From Allosphingosinicella vermicomposti (lineage in GTDB: Bacteria; Pseudomonadota; Alphaproteobacteria; Sphingomonadales; Sphingomonadaceae), in contig NZ_PXYJ01000001.1 in assembly GCF_003012815.1 (NCBI RefSeq), positions 558,001-622,000 of the forward strand: a stretch of DNA of 64,000 nucleotides, given 5' to 3'. This document shows positions 794-48,103 of this stretch, piece by piece (positions within the stretch are counted from its first letter, which is position 1; each line of letters opens with the position of its first letter). A model generated the notes under the pieces. That model had not been told where the DNA came from. It did not search any database and saw only the letters and a list, made by a program, of their open reading frames with translations. The translations under genes were made by a program, and so were the position numbers.

Positions 794-2935
794 TTGAAGA
801 CTTTGCTTCTCGCAAGCGCAACCGCGCTCGCGCTCGGCGGTTCAGCCGCTGCAATGGCCCAGACCGCACCCTCTACCGCCGCGCCCGCAGCCGCGGCCAG
901 CAATCCGTTGCTTGCCGACTGGACCGGCCCCTATGCCGGTGTTCCACCGTTCGACAAGGTGACGCCGGAACTCGTTTCGCAGGCACTTGGCGTCGCGATC
1001 GAAGAACAGCGCAAGGAAGTGCTCGCCATCGCGAACAATACCGCCGCGCCGACTTTCGCTAACATGGTGGAAGCGCTGGAGAAATCCGGCCAGCGCCTCG
1101 GCAATGTTTTCGCTCCCTTCGGCGTGATGACGAGCAATATGTCGAACCCGGCCTATCAATCTGTGCAGCGCGAATGGTCGCCCAAGCTTGCCGCCGCATC
1201 GGATGAAATCACGCTCAATCCCAAGCTCTTCCAGCGCGTAAAGGCCGTTTACGATGCGCGCGAAACCTCGGGATTGAATGAAACGCAGAAGCGGGTGGTC
1301 ACGCGCCTCTACGACAGCTTCGTGCGGCGCGGTGCCAATCTGAATGATGCGCAGAAGCAGCAGTTGTCGGCGTACAATCAGCAGCTCGCCGCAGCCTTCG
1401 CGGAATTCAGCGAGAAAGTGCTGGCCGACGAAAGCACCTATATCACCGCGACCGAAGCCCAGATGAAGGGCGTTCCGGACGACATCAAGGCAGCCGCCGC
1501 TGCCGCTGCCAAGGAGCGGAAGCTTCCCGCCGGCACCTATGCCATCGTCAACACGCGCTCGGCCGTGGACCCGGTTCTGACCTTCGCCGATGATCGCGCC
1601 CTTCGCGAGAAGGCGTGGAAGGCCTTCGTCAATCGCGGCGACAATGGAGACGCGAACGATACCAATGCGACGATCGCCAAGATCGTGAAGCTGCGCGCGG
1701 ACCGCGCCAAGCTCCTGGGCTTCAAGAGCCATGCCGAATGGCGGATGCAGGACACGATGGCCAAGACGCCGGAAAAGGCGAACGAGCTGATGATGAAGGT
1801 CTGGCCGGCCGCCGTCGCACGCGTGAAGGACGAGGTGCGCGACCAGCAGGTGATCGCCGACAAGGAAGGCGCGAAGATCAAGATCGAGCCGTGGGACTAT
1901 CGTTATTATCAGGAGAAGGTCCGCAAGGATCGCTACAACCTGACCCAGGACGAGGTGAAGCCTTATTTCGAGCTCAACAACATCATCAACGCGTCCTATT
2001 GGGCGGCGGGTGAGCTGTACGGGCTCGACTTCAAGGAAGTCACCGGCACGGTTCCGACCTGGAGCCCCGATATTCGGGTCTACAGCGTCACGGATCGCGC
2101 GACCGCCAAGCAGGTCGGCCTGTTCTACCGTGACGATTTCGCACGGACGGGCAAGCGCTCGGGTGCATGGGCAACGACCTATCGCAGCCGCGCGGGCCTG
2201 ACCGGCGACGACATCGTGCTGGGTTCCAACAACAACAATTTCGTGAAGCCGGGCGACGGCGAGCCGGTCCTCATCAGCCTCGACGACGCTGAAACGCTGT
2301 TCCACGAATTCGGCCACGCCATTCACTACTTCCTGTCGGACGTCTATTATCCGAGCCTCGGCGGCACGCCGCGCGACTTCGTGGAATATCCGAGCCAGGT
2401 GAACGAGAATTGGCTGCTGACGCCGCAGGTGCTGTCGCGCTTCGCCAAGCACTACAAGACCGGTGAGCCGATGCCGAAGGCCCTGCTCGACAAGATCGAA
2501 GCCTCGTCCAAGTTCAACCAGGGCTTCGCGACGGTGGAATATCTCTCGTCCGCGCTGGTCGATATGGCGCTCCACACCGATCCGAACGGGGTGGTCGATG
2601 CCAAGGCGTTCGAGAAGGAAACGCTGGCGAAGCTCGGCATGCCGAGCGAACTGGTGATGCGTCACCGCCTGCCGCAGTTCAACCACCTCTTCTCGTCCGA
2701 CGCTTATTCGGCCGGCTATTATTCCTACCTCTGGTCGGAAACCATGGACGCCGACACCTGGGCGGCGTTCGAGGAAACGGGCAATCCATTCGACAAGGCG
2801 ACGGCTGAAAGGTTCGCAAAGACGCTGCTGTCGACGGGCAACGAGACGGATCGCGCGGACGCCTACAAGGCCTTCCGCGGCCGCGATCCGGACGTGAATG
2901 CCCTGCTCAAGAAGCGCGGCTTCCCGACGAATTAA
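794..2935 (+). CDS. M3 family zinc metallopeptidase (peptidyl-dipeptidase Dcp/oligopeptidase type), exported
   Basis: A 713-residue protein with the M3 signature HEFGHAIHYF; the zinc-binding HExxH is at residues 504-508, at the expected place in the C-terminal half of a family that usually runs to about 680-720 residues. The N-terminus MKTLLLASATALALGG ending in AMAQ looks like a Sec signal peptide, so the enzyme probably degrades oligopeptides in the periplasm. The start is TTG, chosen because it gives a complete signal peptide and has GGGAG about 8 bases upstream. It stands alone between the phosphotransferase gene and prfC. Dcp versus oligopeptidase A specificity cannot be decided here. 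Confidence 0.93.
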   Translation: MKTLLLASATALALGGSAAAMAQTAPSTAAPAAAASNPLLADWTGPYAGVPPFDKVTPELVSQALGVAIEEQRKEVLAIANNTAAPTFANMVEALEKSGQRLGNVFAPFGVMTSNMSNPAYQSVQREWSPKLAAASDEITLNPKLFQRVKAVYDARETSGLNETQKRVVTRLYDSFVRRGANLNDAQKQQLSAYNQQLAAAFAEFSEKVLADESTYITATEAQMKGVPDDIKAAAAAAAKERKLPAGTYAIVNTRSAVDPVLTFADDRALREKAWKAFVNRGDNGDANDTNATIAKIVKLRADRAKLLGFKSHAEWRMQDTMAKTPEKANELMMKVWPAAVARVKDEVRDQQVIADKEGAKIKIEPWDYRYYQEKVRKDRYNLTQDEVKPYFELNNIINASYWAAGELYGLDFKEVTGTVPTWSPDIRVYSVTDRATAKQVGLFYRDDFARTGKRSGAWATTYRSRAGLTGDDIVLGSNNNNFVKPGDGEPVLISLDDAETLFHEFGHAIHYFLSDVYYPSLGGTPRDFVEYPSQVNENWLLTPQVLSRFAKHYKTGEPMPKALLDKIEASSKFNQGFATVEYLSSALVDMALHTDPNGVVDAKAFEKETLAKLGMPSELVMRHRLPQFNHLFSSDAYSAGYYSYLWSETMDADTWAAFEETGNPFDKATAERFAKTLLSTGNETDRADAYKAFRGRDPDVNALLKKRGFPTN

Positions 2936-2949
2936 ACATCATCTACTCG

Positions 2950-3029
2950 CGTCACCCCGGCGAAAGCCGGGGGCTCAGGGCGGCATATCGCCCTCTTGTC
3001 CTGAGATGCCGGCTTTCGCCGGCAAGACG
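2950..3029. repeat. Family B palindromic repeat (GGCGAAAGCCGG type), copy 1
   Basis: Two inverted arms, CGTCACCCCGGCGAAAGCCG and its reverse-complement relative ending in CGGCTTTCGCCGGCAAGACG, surround a spacer. It lies between the peptidase gene and prfC. Related copies are at 47411, 47915, 49507 and 52960. It could act as a transcript-end hairpin. Confidence 0.85.
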
Positions 3030-3100
3030 TGGGTGTTTTATTTTGAATGCGAAACCGGCTAAGGCGCCGCCAAGCATTCACAGCATTCTCGAAAAGCATC

Positions 3101-10798: not shown

Positions 10799-11994
10799 AG
10801 CACCACCAATTCGGCCTTGAGGGCCCCCGCCTGCTTCAGCGCTTCGAGGATCGCGACCAGATCGGAAGGCGCCGCACCGATCGCGTTCACCGCCTTCACA
10901 ATCTCTGATAACGACGCGCCGGCCGAAACTTGAAACATCGGCGCGCGCTGCTCGATCACTTCGATACTGCTGGAAGGCTCCACAGCCGTCTGGCCGCGCG
11001 AAAATGGCGCGGGCTGGATGACGCGCGGATCTTCCTGAACCGCGACCGTGAGCTTGCCGTGGCTGACGGCAGCGGGTGCGATGCGCACCGCGCCGTTGAC
11101 GACCACGGTGCCGGTCCGCGCATTGACTATCACGCGGGCGGGTGCATCTGCGGGATCCACGTTCAAATTCTCAATCTGGCTCATCAGCGCGGTACGCACC
11201 TCGGCGCCCTGCGGCGCTTCGATCGTGATCGTCACCGCGTCCGTAGCACGCGCATTGATGCCGAGCTTGCCGCTGATCGCCTGGGCCACGCGTTGGGCAG
11301 TAGTGAGATCGGCATCGGCGAGATTAAACATCAGGGTCGGCGACGTCGCGAAGCCCGCATCCACCGCGCGTTCCACCGTGGCGCCGCCCGGAATACGCCC
11401 GGCCGACGGAATGTTGACGGATACCTTCGATCCGTCCGCCGCTTCGACACCGAGGCCGCCGACGGCGAGATTGCCCTGCGCCATCGCATAGATTTCATTG
11501 TCTGCGCCGCGCAAAGGGGCAAGCACGAGGGTGCCCCCGCGCAGCGACTTCGCCTTGCCCAGCGCCGACACGGTGATGTCGAGCCGCTGGCCGGGCTTGG
11601 CGAAGGGCGGGAGTTCGGCGGTGATCATCACGGCGGCGGCATTCTTCAGCGCCGGATTGACGCCCGGGGGCAGGGTGAGGCCGAAGCGGGAGGTGACGCC
11701 CCTCATGCCCTGCGTCGCATAATCGAGGCTGTCGTCACCCGTCCCCGCGAGACCCACCACGATGCCGTAGCCGGTGAGCTGGTTGGCACGCAGGCCCTGG
11801 AAGGCGCCGAGATCCTTTACGCGTTCGGCATGTGCGGGCGCGGCGAAGAGGGTGCTGATTGTAGCTAATAAAAGCGCGATTACCAAAACCGTTCGGGCTG
11901 AGCTTGTCGAAGCCCTGTTCTTTTCTTTTTTTGTCCGAGAGGGGAAGGGCAGCCCTTCGACAAGCTCAGGGCGAACGGAAGTGGGGAAGGCCAT
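10795..11994 (-). CDS. flgI: Flagellar P-ring protein, with a palindromic repeat inside its signal-peptide region
   Basis: About 399 residues. Mature FlgI is clear: ERVKDLGAFQGLRANQLTGYGIVVGLAGTGDD and the C-terminal LVAILEALKQAGALKAELVVL. It builds the periplasmic P ring after Sec export. The N-terminus is unusual: before the hydrophobic core VLVIALLLATISTLFA and the cleavage site APAHA there are about 35 polar residues, including RPELVEG and ASTSSART, which are the translation of a family A repeat (11891-11976). ATG at 11994 is preferred to ATG at 12003 because GAGG then lies 9 bases upstream. A TTG inside the region (VIALLL...) could also be used and would avoid translating the repeat. Confidence 0.93.
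   Translation of the reverse strand: MAFPTSVRPELVEGLPFPSRTKKEKNRASTSSARTVLVIALLLATISTLFAAPAHAERVKDLGAFQGLRANQLTGYGIVVGLAGTGDDSLDYATQGMRGVTSRFGLTLPPGVNPALKNAAAVMITAELPPFAKPGQRLDITVSALGKAKSLRGGTLVLAPLRGADNEIYAMAQGNLAVGGLGVEAADGSKVSVNIPSAGRIPGGATVERAVDAGFATSPTLMFNLADADLTTAQRVAQAISGKLGINARATDAVTITIEAPQGAEVRTALMSQIENLNVDPADAPARVIVNARTGTVVVNGAVRIAPAAVSHGKLTVAVQEDPRVIQPAPFSRGQTAVEPSSSIEVIEQRAPMFQVSAGASLSEIVKAVNAIGAAPSDLVAILEALKQAGALKAELVVL
11891..11976. repeat. Family A palindromic repeat lying in-frame inside flgI, copy 2
   Basis: Arms GTTCGGGCTGAGCTTGTCGA and its inverse around 11952-11976, with a T/C-rich middle. It is translated in flgI as RPELVEG...ASTSSART without any stop codon. Confidence 0.85.
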
Positions 11995-12005
11995 ATTGCT
12001 CATCC

Positions 12006-12659
12006 TCAGAACGGGCTGACGCGGGAGAAAAAGCGCTGGAGCCAGCCTTGCTGGCTCGCCCGCGCAAGCTGTCCCCTGCCGGAATAAGTGATGCGGGCGT
12101 CGGCCACGCGGGTGGAGGCGACGCGATTGTCCGCGCCGATATCGGCCGGGCGGATCATCCCGGAAATCTGGATGAACTCGTCACCGCGGTTAAGCGTCAC
12201 AAGCTTTTCGCCGCGCACGAGCATGTTGCCGTTGGGATAGACGGCGGCGACGGTCACGCTGATCTCGCCGGTCAGGCTGTTGGACTGGGTTGCGGCGCCT
12301 TTGCCGCTAAAGCCCTGGTCGCCGCCCATGGCGACATCGCTGGGATTGAACAATGACAGCGGCCCCGTCGTCGGCGGCGTCAAACCAATGTCGCCGCTGC
12401 GATCGAGCGAGGCCGCGTTCGATTTGGCGGCCTGCGTCCGCTCAACCAGCACGATAGTCACGATATCGCCCACCATCGCCGCGCGCTGGCCGCTGGTGAG
12501 CGGCGCATAGCCGTTGGCGGTCTGGAAGATCGCGCCGTTGCTGGGCGCTTGCACCACCGGAACGGGCGGCAAAGCGGGTTCGTAGCTTTCCTTCGGCTTC
12601 GATCCGAAGAGGCTGCCGAAGATACCGGCGGCGATCAGAAGGGCGGGTGCGGCGGCCAT
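12006..12659 (-). CDS. flgH: Flagellar L-ring protein, lacking the usual lipobox cysteine
   Basis: 217 residues. The body matches FlgH: GDIVTIVLVERTQAAKSNAAS, GEISVTVAAVYPNGNMLVRGEK and DEFIQISGMIRPADI. FlgH normally carries a lipoprotein signal with an invariant Cys and is acylated in the outer membrane. Here the N-terminus is MAAAPALLIAAGIFGSLFGS and no Cys occurs in it, nor in the in-frame codons just upstream. It is followed by flgI with only two bases between, and preceded by flgG. Confidence 0.93.
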   Translation of the reverse strand: MAAAPALLIAAGIFGSLFGSKPKESYEPALPPVPVVQAPSNGAIFQTANGYAPLTSGQRAAMVGDIVTIVLVERTQAAKSNAASLDRSGDIGLTPPTTGPLSLFNPSDVAMGGDQGFSGKGAATQSNSLTGEISVTVAAVYPNGNMLVRGEKLVTLNRGDEFIQISGMIRPADIGADNRVASTRVADARITYSGRGQLARASQQGWLQRFFSRVSPF

Positions 12660-47396: not shown

Positions 47397-47887
47397 AACG
47401 GCTGTTTTCTCGTCATTCCGGCGAAAGCCGGAATCTCATGAAGGAAAGCGACGAGAGCAGCGCGCCCTTCCAGCCCAAGATCCCGGCTTTCGCCGGGATG
47501 ACGGGCGTGAGAATCGCGACGGCAGCAATTATCGGCCTCCTGGCCGCATCGCCCGCCACGACGCGGGGCGGCGACAGCTTGGCCGCCCTGTCCTCGCTTG
47601 AGGCAGGGCGCTGGCAGCTGCGCGACCTCAACAGCGGCCGCGCGAGCAGCCTGTGCCTCGGCAATCGCCGCGCGCTCATGCAGGTTCGTCATTCCGGCCA
47701 ATGCGCATGGACGGTTATCCGCAACGAAGCGAAGGATGCGACGATCGCTTATACGTGCGGCGACGGCTCGGGCCGCACCGCGCTGCGCGTCGAAACCCCG
47801 CGCCTCGCGCAAATCGACACGCAGGGTGTCCTGGGCGGCATCCCCTACGCCATGCGCGCCGAAGCTAGGCACGTTGGAAGCTGCTAA
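47393..47887 (+). CDS. Small exported cysteine-containing protein with a repeat inside its signal region
   Basis: 164 residues from ATG 47393, which overlaps the hslO stop (ATGA). It begins MKRLF, like a signal peptide, but a family B repeat follows (RHSGESRN...PAFAGMTG) before the hydrophobic core RIATAAIIGLLAASPA. The mature part has LEAGRWQLRDLNSGRASSLC and three more Cys, resembling DUF3617-type periplasmic proteins. Alternative starts are ATG 47498, created by the repeat, and GTG 47507. Function unknown. Confidence 0.7.
   Translation: MKRLFSRHSGESRNLMKESDESSAPFQPKIPAFAGMTGVRIATAAIIGLLAASPATTRGGDSLAALSSLEAGRWQLRDLNSGRASSLCLGNRRALMQVRHSGQCAWTVIRNEAKDATIAYTCGDGSGRTALRVETPRLAQIDTQGVLGGIPYAMRAEARHVGSC
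47411..47503. repeat. Family B palindromic repeat within a coding frame, copy 2
   Basis: Arms CGTCATTCCGGCGAAAGCCG and CCCGGCTTTCGCCGGGATGA surround a spacer; translated as SRHSGESRN and IPAFAGMT in the gene at 47393. Confidence 0.88.
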
Positions 47888-47914
47888 AGCGCCCGCCCCA
47901 TTTACCCCCTCCTA

Positions 47915-48000
47915 CGTCATTCCGGCGAAAGCCGGAATCTCAGGACAAGAGGACACCGGAGCTTATCCGGCATGAGATTCCGGCTTTCGCCGGAATGACG
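47915..48000. repeat. Family B palindromic repeat, copy 3
   Basis: CGTCATTCCGGCGAAAGCCG left arm and CCGGCTTTCGCCGGAATGAC right arm; a complete, nearly perfect copy 28 bases after the small exported gene. Confidence 0.92.
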
Positions 48001-48103
48001 GAGGTTATCCCGTTCAGCCCCGGTTTAGCCGCCCTTCGCTAATCCTCCCACGTGCCCGGAATGGCACGCTTTCCTCCCTTTGGGCCATTTGAAGGTCCGA
48101 ACT

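Follow-up and report, generated by a model that had tools for sequence, protein, structure and literature searches.

The window, a stretch of 64,000 nucleotides from Allosphingosinicella vermicomposti (genome G000), carries a flagellar operon in which Pfam matches give the order FlgD, FlgE-type, two rod-type proteins (FlgF/G), FlgH, FlgI, a rod-binding protein (FlgJ-type), FlgK and flagellin-N. Those neighbouring genes that were tested with Pfam were whole, in agreement with the otherwise intact operon that the initial annotation had stated. The Pfam FlgI profile was covered end to end by FlgI residues 58-398. By inspection and simple counts, the FlgI N-terminus has the parts of a Sec signal: an n-region with a net charge of +4, a core of 16 residues (VLVIALLLATISTLFA) and APAHA before E57, and both core and cleavage site are undamaged, as had been claimed. 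Between the start at 11994 and this core we found the palindromic repeat that the initial annotation had described as lying in frame within flgI. Translation yielded the two peptides it named, RPELVEG and ASTSSART, and an n-region of 35 residues from that ATG. The features of the locus are collected in Table 1.

Table 1. Features at the 5' end of flgI and around it, in window positions
Feature	Position	Strand	Basis or remark
flgI, P-ring protein, 399 aa	10795..11994	-	From ATG 11994; Pfam FlgI, sequence
APAHA, residues 52-56, likely signal peptidase I site before E57	11827..11841	-	Inspection; Pfam match from residue 58
Hydrophobic core VLVIALLLATISTLFA, FlgI residues 36-51	11842..11889	-	Translation
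TTG, residue 37, within the hydrophobic core; sole start-like codon between element and mature FlgI	11884..11886	-	Sequence
Palindromic element, 90 nt, CCGTTCG...CGAACGG, family A, CGTTC subtype; FlgI residues 6-35	11889..11978	-	
Second repeat core in gene direction, CTTCGACAAGCTCAG, codes ..STSSA..	11898..11912	.	Exact 15-mer; contig C1 569898-569912
First repeat core in gene direction, CTGAGCTTGTCGAAG, codes ..ELVE..	11955..11969	.	Exact 15-mer; contig C1 569955-569969
Likeliest start codon ATG, 9 nt past GAGG	11992..11994	-	Sequence
Second in-frame ATG, zero spacing to GAGG	12001..12003	-	Sequence
GAGG, Shine-Dalgarno-like, overlaps flgH stop TGA (12006-12008)	12004..12007	-	Sequence
flgH, stop abuts flgI	12006..12659	-	ORF, Pfam

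The arms of the inverted repeat (11889-11922 and 11945-11978 in + strand numbering) are 34 nt long and 82% complementary, and the element strand, folded as DNA, was far more stable than its shuffled versions (z -5.35; 0/200 shuffles as stable). Exact copies of the core 15-mer were abundant in the 2.51-Mb genome, with 106 of CTTCGACAAGCTCAG and 111 of CTTCGACAGGCTCAG, while a reversed control 15-mer had 0 copies; the flgI repeat is therefore not a chance match. The 200 of the 217 cores that were listed, on which the following counts rest, formed 126 clusters. Fifty-seven of these were inverted pairs in one orientation, and their spans bunched at 51-52, 58 and 70-72 nt. Leaving aside a pair with a 153-nt span, the heads of 56 pairs were CGTTC in 15, CGCTAG in 40 and other in 1. 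A coding scan based on codon usage (flanks of 210 nt, and a threshold of 15 bits that was our own choice) found no coding flank for 68 of the 126 clusters, one flank for 45, an in-frame position inside a gene for 4, the same frame with a stop for 2 and other arrangements for 7. Twelve Rfam matches (E up to 1) all lay far under their gathering scores and were taken as chance hairpin matches. The window also holds a second repeat family, with CGTCATTCCGGCGAAAGCCGG-type palindromes at 2928-3051, 47411-47503 and 47911-48004.

In three respects these repeats conform to REP sequences and REPINs: they are short imperfect palindromes at high copy (106 + 111 exact cores, control 0), they form inverted pairs with typical spacing (57/126 of the clusters of listed cores) and they are chiefly extragenic (68/126 of those clusters without a coding flank). 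The GTAG or CGTC tag is missing from the 56 pairs of listed cores, with their CGTTC, CGCTAG or other heads. PF01797 (Y1_Tnp, RAYT) had no match in the G000 genome, and RAYT was for that reason rejected as the mover of the G000 elements. The profile was present in 11 of 26 genomes of the genus, at 19 places; at the 12 of these places inspected (up to about 1.5 kb on each side) there were no family A cores nearby, and copy number showed no link to PF01797 presence across the 26 genomes (Mann-Whitney P 0.42). G002, the closest relative examined, has 1 family A core vs 217 in G000 and likewise lacks a Y1 transposase match, a gain or loss of copies on a large scale for which no mover is visible. 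That the element is mobile is something we infer.

The four in-frame pairs found by the coding scan lie in genes named from NCBIfam as RNase R, valyl-tRNA synthetase, SufC and methylmalonyl-CoA mutase, and a fifth copy, below the scan threshold and spotted by inspection, lies in the linker of the succinyltransferase OdhB/SucB. All five (rnr, valS, sufC, odhB and mcm) are mid-protein, and together with the flgI copy they read VR[PAT]E[LP]VE[AG] in frame. If those six genes work, G000 ribosomes would read through the element. The six in-gene pairs all belong to the CGTTC subtype (6/15 vs 0/41 others among listed cores; Fisher P 1.5e-4, the split having been made post hoc). Stop-codon content was not supported as the cause of this restriction, the share of open frames being alike in the two subtypes (CGTTC 48/90, 53%; CGCTAG 118/240, 49%). 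Element length may help explain why the CGTTC subtype alone sits in genes: pair lengths were 1 mod 3 in 26/40 CGCTAG pairs and a multiple of 3 in 6/15 CGTTC pairs, these being lengths of pairs and not established inserted lengths.

For rnr, sufC and mcm the in-gene copies were compared with relatives. In rnr, five of six relatives were empty (2/7 genomes filled), and in mcm four of six were empty, with 3/7 genomes filled by a different family in each. Beside family A, a second in-frame repeat-like peptide (TPFASSEVEKR..., with an end like ..TNG) is present in both RNase R and valyl-tRNA synthetase, at C1:491486-491557 and C1:659076-659146 (L095, L102); in RNase R it is this second stretch that interrupts the match to G002, G022 and G018. 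In G018 a family A element forms the in-frame C-terminal end of an RnpA-like protein, so named by eye (L057).

The initial annotation had offered as an alternative that translation starts at the TTG and bypasses the repeat. More broadly, the palindrome could be leader RNA, with initiation at a weak start such as TTG 11886, an open frame that is accidental and a hairpin acting on mRNA stability or flgH-flgI coupling. An in-frame TTG does exist, and about half of the CGTTC element frames are open anyway (48/90). PMC3733652 cautions that, of the intragenic REPs at N-termini, many may lie outside genes. However, TTG 11886 lacks a Shine-Dalgarno sequence and the n-region counted from it contains no basic residue, and we therefore judged it unlikely as the flgI start, whereas GAGG and an ATG precede the element. 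Initiation at the upstream ATG 11994 with read-through of the element would best explain this arrangement of the sequence.

We then compared flgH-flgI junctions across sphingomonads. Within the genus, a FlgI search gave matches in 22/26 genomes (E ≤ 0.001), some via the element or a distant FlgI; from these we took the 16 closest loci. Within the family, 179/298 genomes matched at E ≤ 1e-100 and the best 110 of the 179 were used, so that distant relatives are under-represented in the survey; GTDB contigs contributed 51 loci. The 177 loci comprised 145 distinct junctions that could be parsed, 13 unparsed and 19 duplicates, and the uncounted loci L047-L055 are more distant copies, a fragment and one match to the element alone. 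The distance from the flgH stop to mature FlgI was 53-140 nt in 133 of the 145 junctions and 182-304 nt in 12. Eleven of these 12 enlarged junctions contain a palindromic element that is open in the FlgI frame; in the twelfth, L237, the element is out of frame. By families A-F, which are our own names assigned by eye from the cores, the carriers divide into four with A (G000, G017, G187 and Sphingobium vermicomposti), four with B (S. quisquiliarum, S. fuliginis, S. chlorophenolicum and Sphingobium sp. 15-1), two with C (S. lactosutens and S. abikonense) and one with D (G130). The stretches of all 11 folded better than the shuffle mean, with 0/100 shuffles as stable for nine and 1/100 for L110 and L152. 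Counted from the first in-frame ATG, the n-region was 37-62 residues in the 11 carriers vs 0-27 (median 7) in 123 others, a count that leaves out L237 and 10 junctions without ATG. Short family C-like stretches (SPYRGG, LPFQGRW and LPRGED), perhaps remnants, were seen in the FlgI leaders of L114, L121 and L129.

The sister of G000 in this survey, G002 (FlgI 88% identical, SH-aLRT 96), has an empty flgI, with a distance of 68 nt vs 182 in G000. Its N-terminus begins MLKRLFAALLIFAAPAQA, and the repeat is thus missing from a close relative, so that the possibility raised with the initial annotation, of one N-terminus common to all relatives, does not apply. A tree built from 85 mature FlgI sequences includes 10 of the 11 carriers (L243 and L237 fall outside it) and requires 9 changes between presence and absence of an element. 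Empty neighbours on the tree are G002, G232 (sister of G187) and G003 (near G017), and one close clade contains S. quisquiliarum (L110, family B), S. vermicomposti (L152, family A) and Novosphingobium sp. Chol11 (L149, empty). From this distribution we count at least seven in-frame entries (four A, one B, one C and one D) plus one out of frame. At least 7 of 8 events in frame has P = 3.8e-5 at a chance of 0.18 per event, a rough value (48/90 open frames times one third for length) in which the inserted length is not established.

This excess of in-frame events also argues against the palindrome being leader RNA, as do individual junctions. In the stretches listed, L117 and L167 have no ATG, GTG or TTG from the element to mature FlgI, and in L152 the only such codon after the element is a TTG near the end of the core; the frame is kept in all three. 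Some elements at the flgH-flgI junction may nevertheless be leader RNA, namely that of L237, which is out of frame, and that of L041 (G017), which is followed by an ATG whose Shine-Dalgarno sequence is good. For flgI of G000 we consider a leader RNA improbable.

None of the 85 distinct mature FlgI sequences contained an insert of ≥6 aa, while the leaders carry them; insertions are thus accepted by the part of the protein that is discarded and not by the part that is kept. FlgH N-termini had been chosen as a negative control and proved to carry elements as well. Among 82 distinct FlgH loci (from 97, with 5 unparsed and 10 duplicates), seven have an enlarged N-terminal leader, each through an in-frame stretch with inverted repeats that were recognised by eye and not folded, and some of these carriers have GTG, ATG or TTG codons downstream of the element. 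In four Sphingobium strains (L110, L131, L150 and L152) both the FlgH and the FlgI leader carry elements. FlgJ N-termini, taken as a further control, were partly readable, with a distance obtained for 66/84; it was 65-104 nt in 64 of these, and 125 and 164 nt in the other two.

An element might also be retained as useful, by adding basic residues or by slowing early translation in favour of export or of the FlgI:FlgH ratio. The n-region is indeed positive in all 11 carriers (net charge +3 to +12), insertions recur in both FlgH and FlgI, and the hairpin starts 16 nt downstream of the ATG's first base, which leaves the flgI start site free. The nearest relatives manage without an element, however, the inserts of the different families are unlike in sequence, and inserts shared between loci gave no sign of amino-acid constraint (5 synonymous and 11 non-synonymous single changes between L117 and L127). 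We regard a retained benefit as very improbable.

SufC provides a second case of one site holding several families. In six relatives the SufC site was empty in one and occupied in five, by in-frame palindromic inserts of other families at the exact G000 position, and each of the five was more stable when folded than all 100 shuffles. The inserts of G002, G022, G018 and G004 (families D, E and B) start with CGTCA and resemble CGTC repeats. Searched across the family, the empty SufC sequence matched 156/159 genomes. Among the matches listed, which do not include six low-scoring genomes, the only interruption falls at residues 60-66 and affects seven genomes; one further match, in G139, is cut short by the end of its contig. 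The four of these seven that lie outside the genus were inspected, and all four have an in-frame insert, two folding as hairpins and two known by family C peptides only. The loop after GSVxF is filled in frame by palindrome families that differ between species (L318, L330-L334, L378-L381).

Such recurrence could mean that a transposition machinery favours the DNA near the flgH stop as a hotspot for insertion, with protein permissiveness secondary. The clade of L110, L152 and L149, in which family B, family A and no element occupy the same site, fits a hotspot, and so does the similar presence of several families at one site in SufC. However, the sequences hit (flgI, flgH, sufC and mcm) are unrelated and have tolerance of extra residues as their common property, and inspection of the flgI site by eye revealed neither a target motif nor a duplication. 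We therefore consider a DNA hotspot unlikely.

Taken together, these findings suggest that a palindrome very probably entered the 5' end of flgI in frame, is translated and is then removed with the signal, leaving mature FlgI unchanged. A member of the high-copy repeat, with two inverted cores and CGTTC heads, would have inserted where the frame could stay open. Initiation at ATG 11994 would then produce about 30 repeat-encoded residues followed by the old hydrophobic core, and the resulting pre-FlgI, with its net-positive n-region of 35 residues, would be directed to export by that core. Signal peptidase I is proposed to cut away the enlarged signal; the element-encoded part would thereby be removed and mature FlgI would not change. 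The insertion may be neutral. The n-region of an exported protein would in this respect be a permissive site comparable to a surface loop or a domain linker, one that different palindrome families may enter in relatives, with selection retaining mainly the in-frame cases. The initial annotation had interpreted the repeat as in-frame tolerance of a mobile palindrome in a region removed after export, and the empty sister site and the unlikely TTG start support that interpretation, with mobility as its presumed component.

A wider scheme is possible, and we put it forward tentatively. The CGTTC subtype might be a protein-compatible class that spreads without a RAYT, and a few protein sites, including the FlgI and FlgH n-regions and the SufC loop, might be shared harbours for several families, repeatedly entered, left or replaced, nearly always in frame. 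The results indicate a simple rule, that mobile palindromes survive where extra residues are discarded or tolerated, and suggest that export signals are places that absorb palindromic mobile DNA without harm to the protein. Relatives with different families at the same site are natural replicates for deciding whether hotspots arise from protein tolerance or from target choice. For annotation, trimming signal peptides that appear 'too long' to a downstream TTG is probably wrong.

Several known systems bear comparison. The Yersinia YPAL/RU-2 MITE partly forms the predicted signal peptide of YPO1552, for which a new exported protein was proposed (PMC2229807), whereas the signal enlarged here is an old, conserved one. 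Genic location also separates two related Correia subtypes, in step with their stop codons (PMC2229807); the subtypes here also differ in genic location, but their shares of open frames are alike (48/90 and 118/240). In-frame MITEs are described in Coxiella (PMC5896051). REPINs with RAYTs share with our elements the inverted pair of short palindromes and the high copy number, but G000 has no PF01797 match. Intragenic GTAG/CGTC REP dimers come closer: they code for 20-30 aa, occur in genes that include those of S. alaskensis and E. litoralis, and have hit two Xanthomonas recB genes at about one site (PMC3733652). The likeness therefore extends to dimers in genes, to sphingomonads and to a recurrent site, but the family A heads here are CGTTC or CGCTAG, neither GTAG nor CGTC, and the main text of PMC3733652 does not mention FlgI, flagella or signal peptides. 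The literature searched, which excluded subscription papers, supplements and preprints, described neither palindromes in the signals of FlgI or FlgH nor several families at one signal-peptide site.

The Rickettsia palindromic elements (RPE), to which the initial annotation had likened the flgI repeat, are 105-146 bp long and lie in frame inside conserved genes (PMC2229807); elsewhere they are given as about 150 bp, in ten families (PMC10969869). Both systems fuse palindromes in frame in conserved genes, and the G000 elements, like RPEs, are in frame in such genes and absent from close relatives (flgI, rnr and mcm; sufC is empty in one of six). The likeness lies in the way of working. The differences lie in the hosts, here sphingomonads with genomes of 2.1-6.9 Mb among those searched, and in one signal peptide being hit repeatedly by several families. 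These observations add another group in which mobile palindromes form part of proteins. In-frame palindromes as such are already known from Rickettsia RPEs and intragenic REPs; the novelty lies in a signal-peptide n-region being used repeatedly, and by different families.
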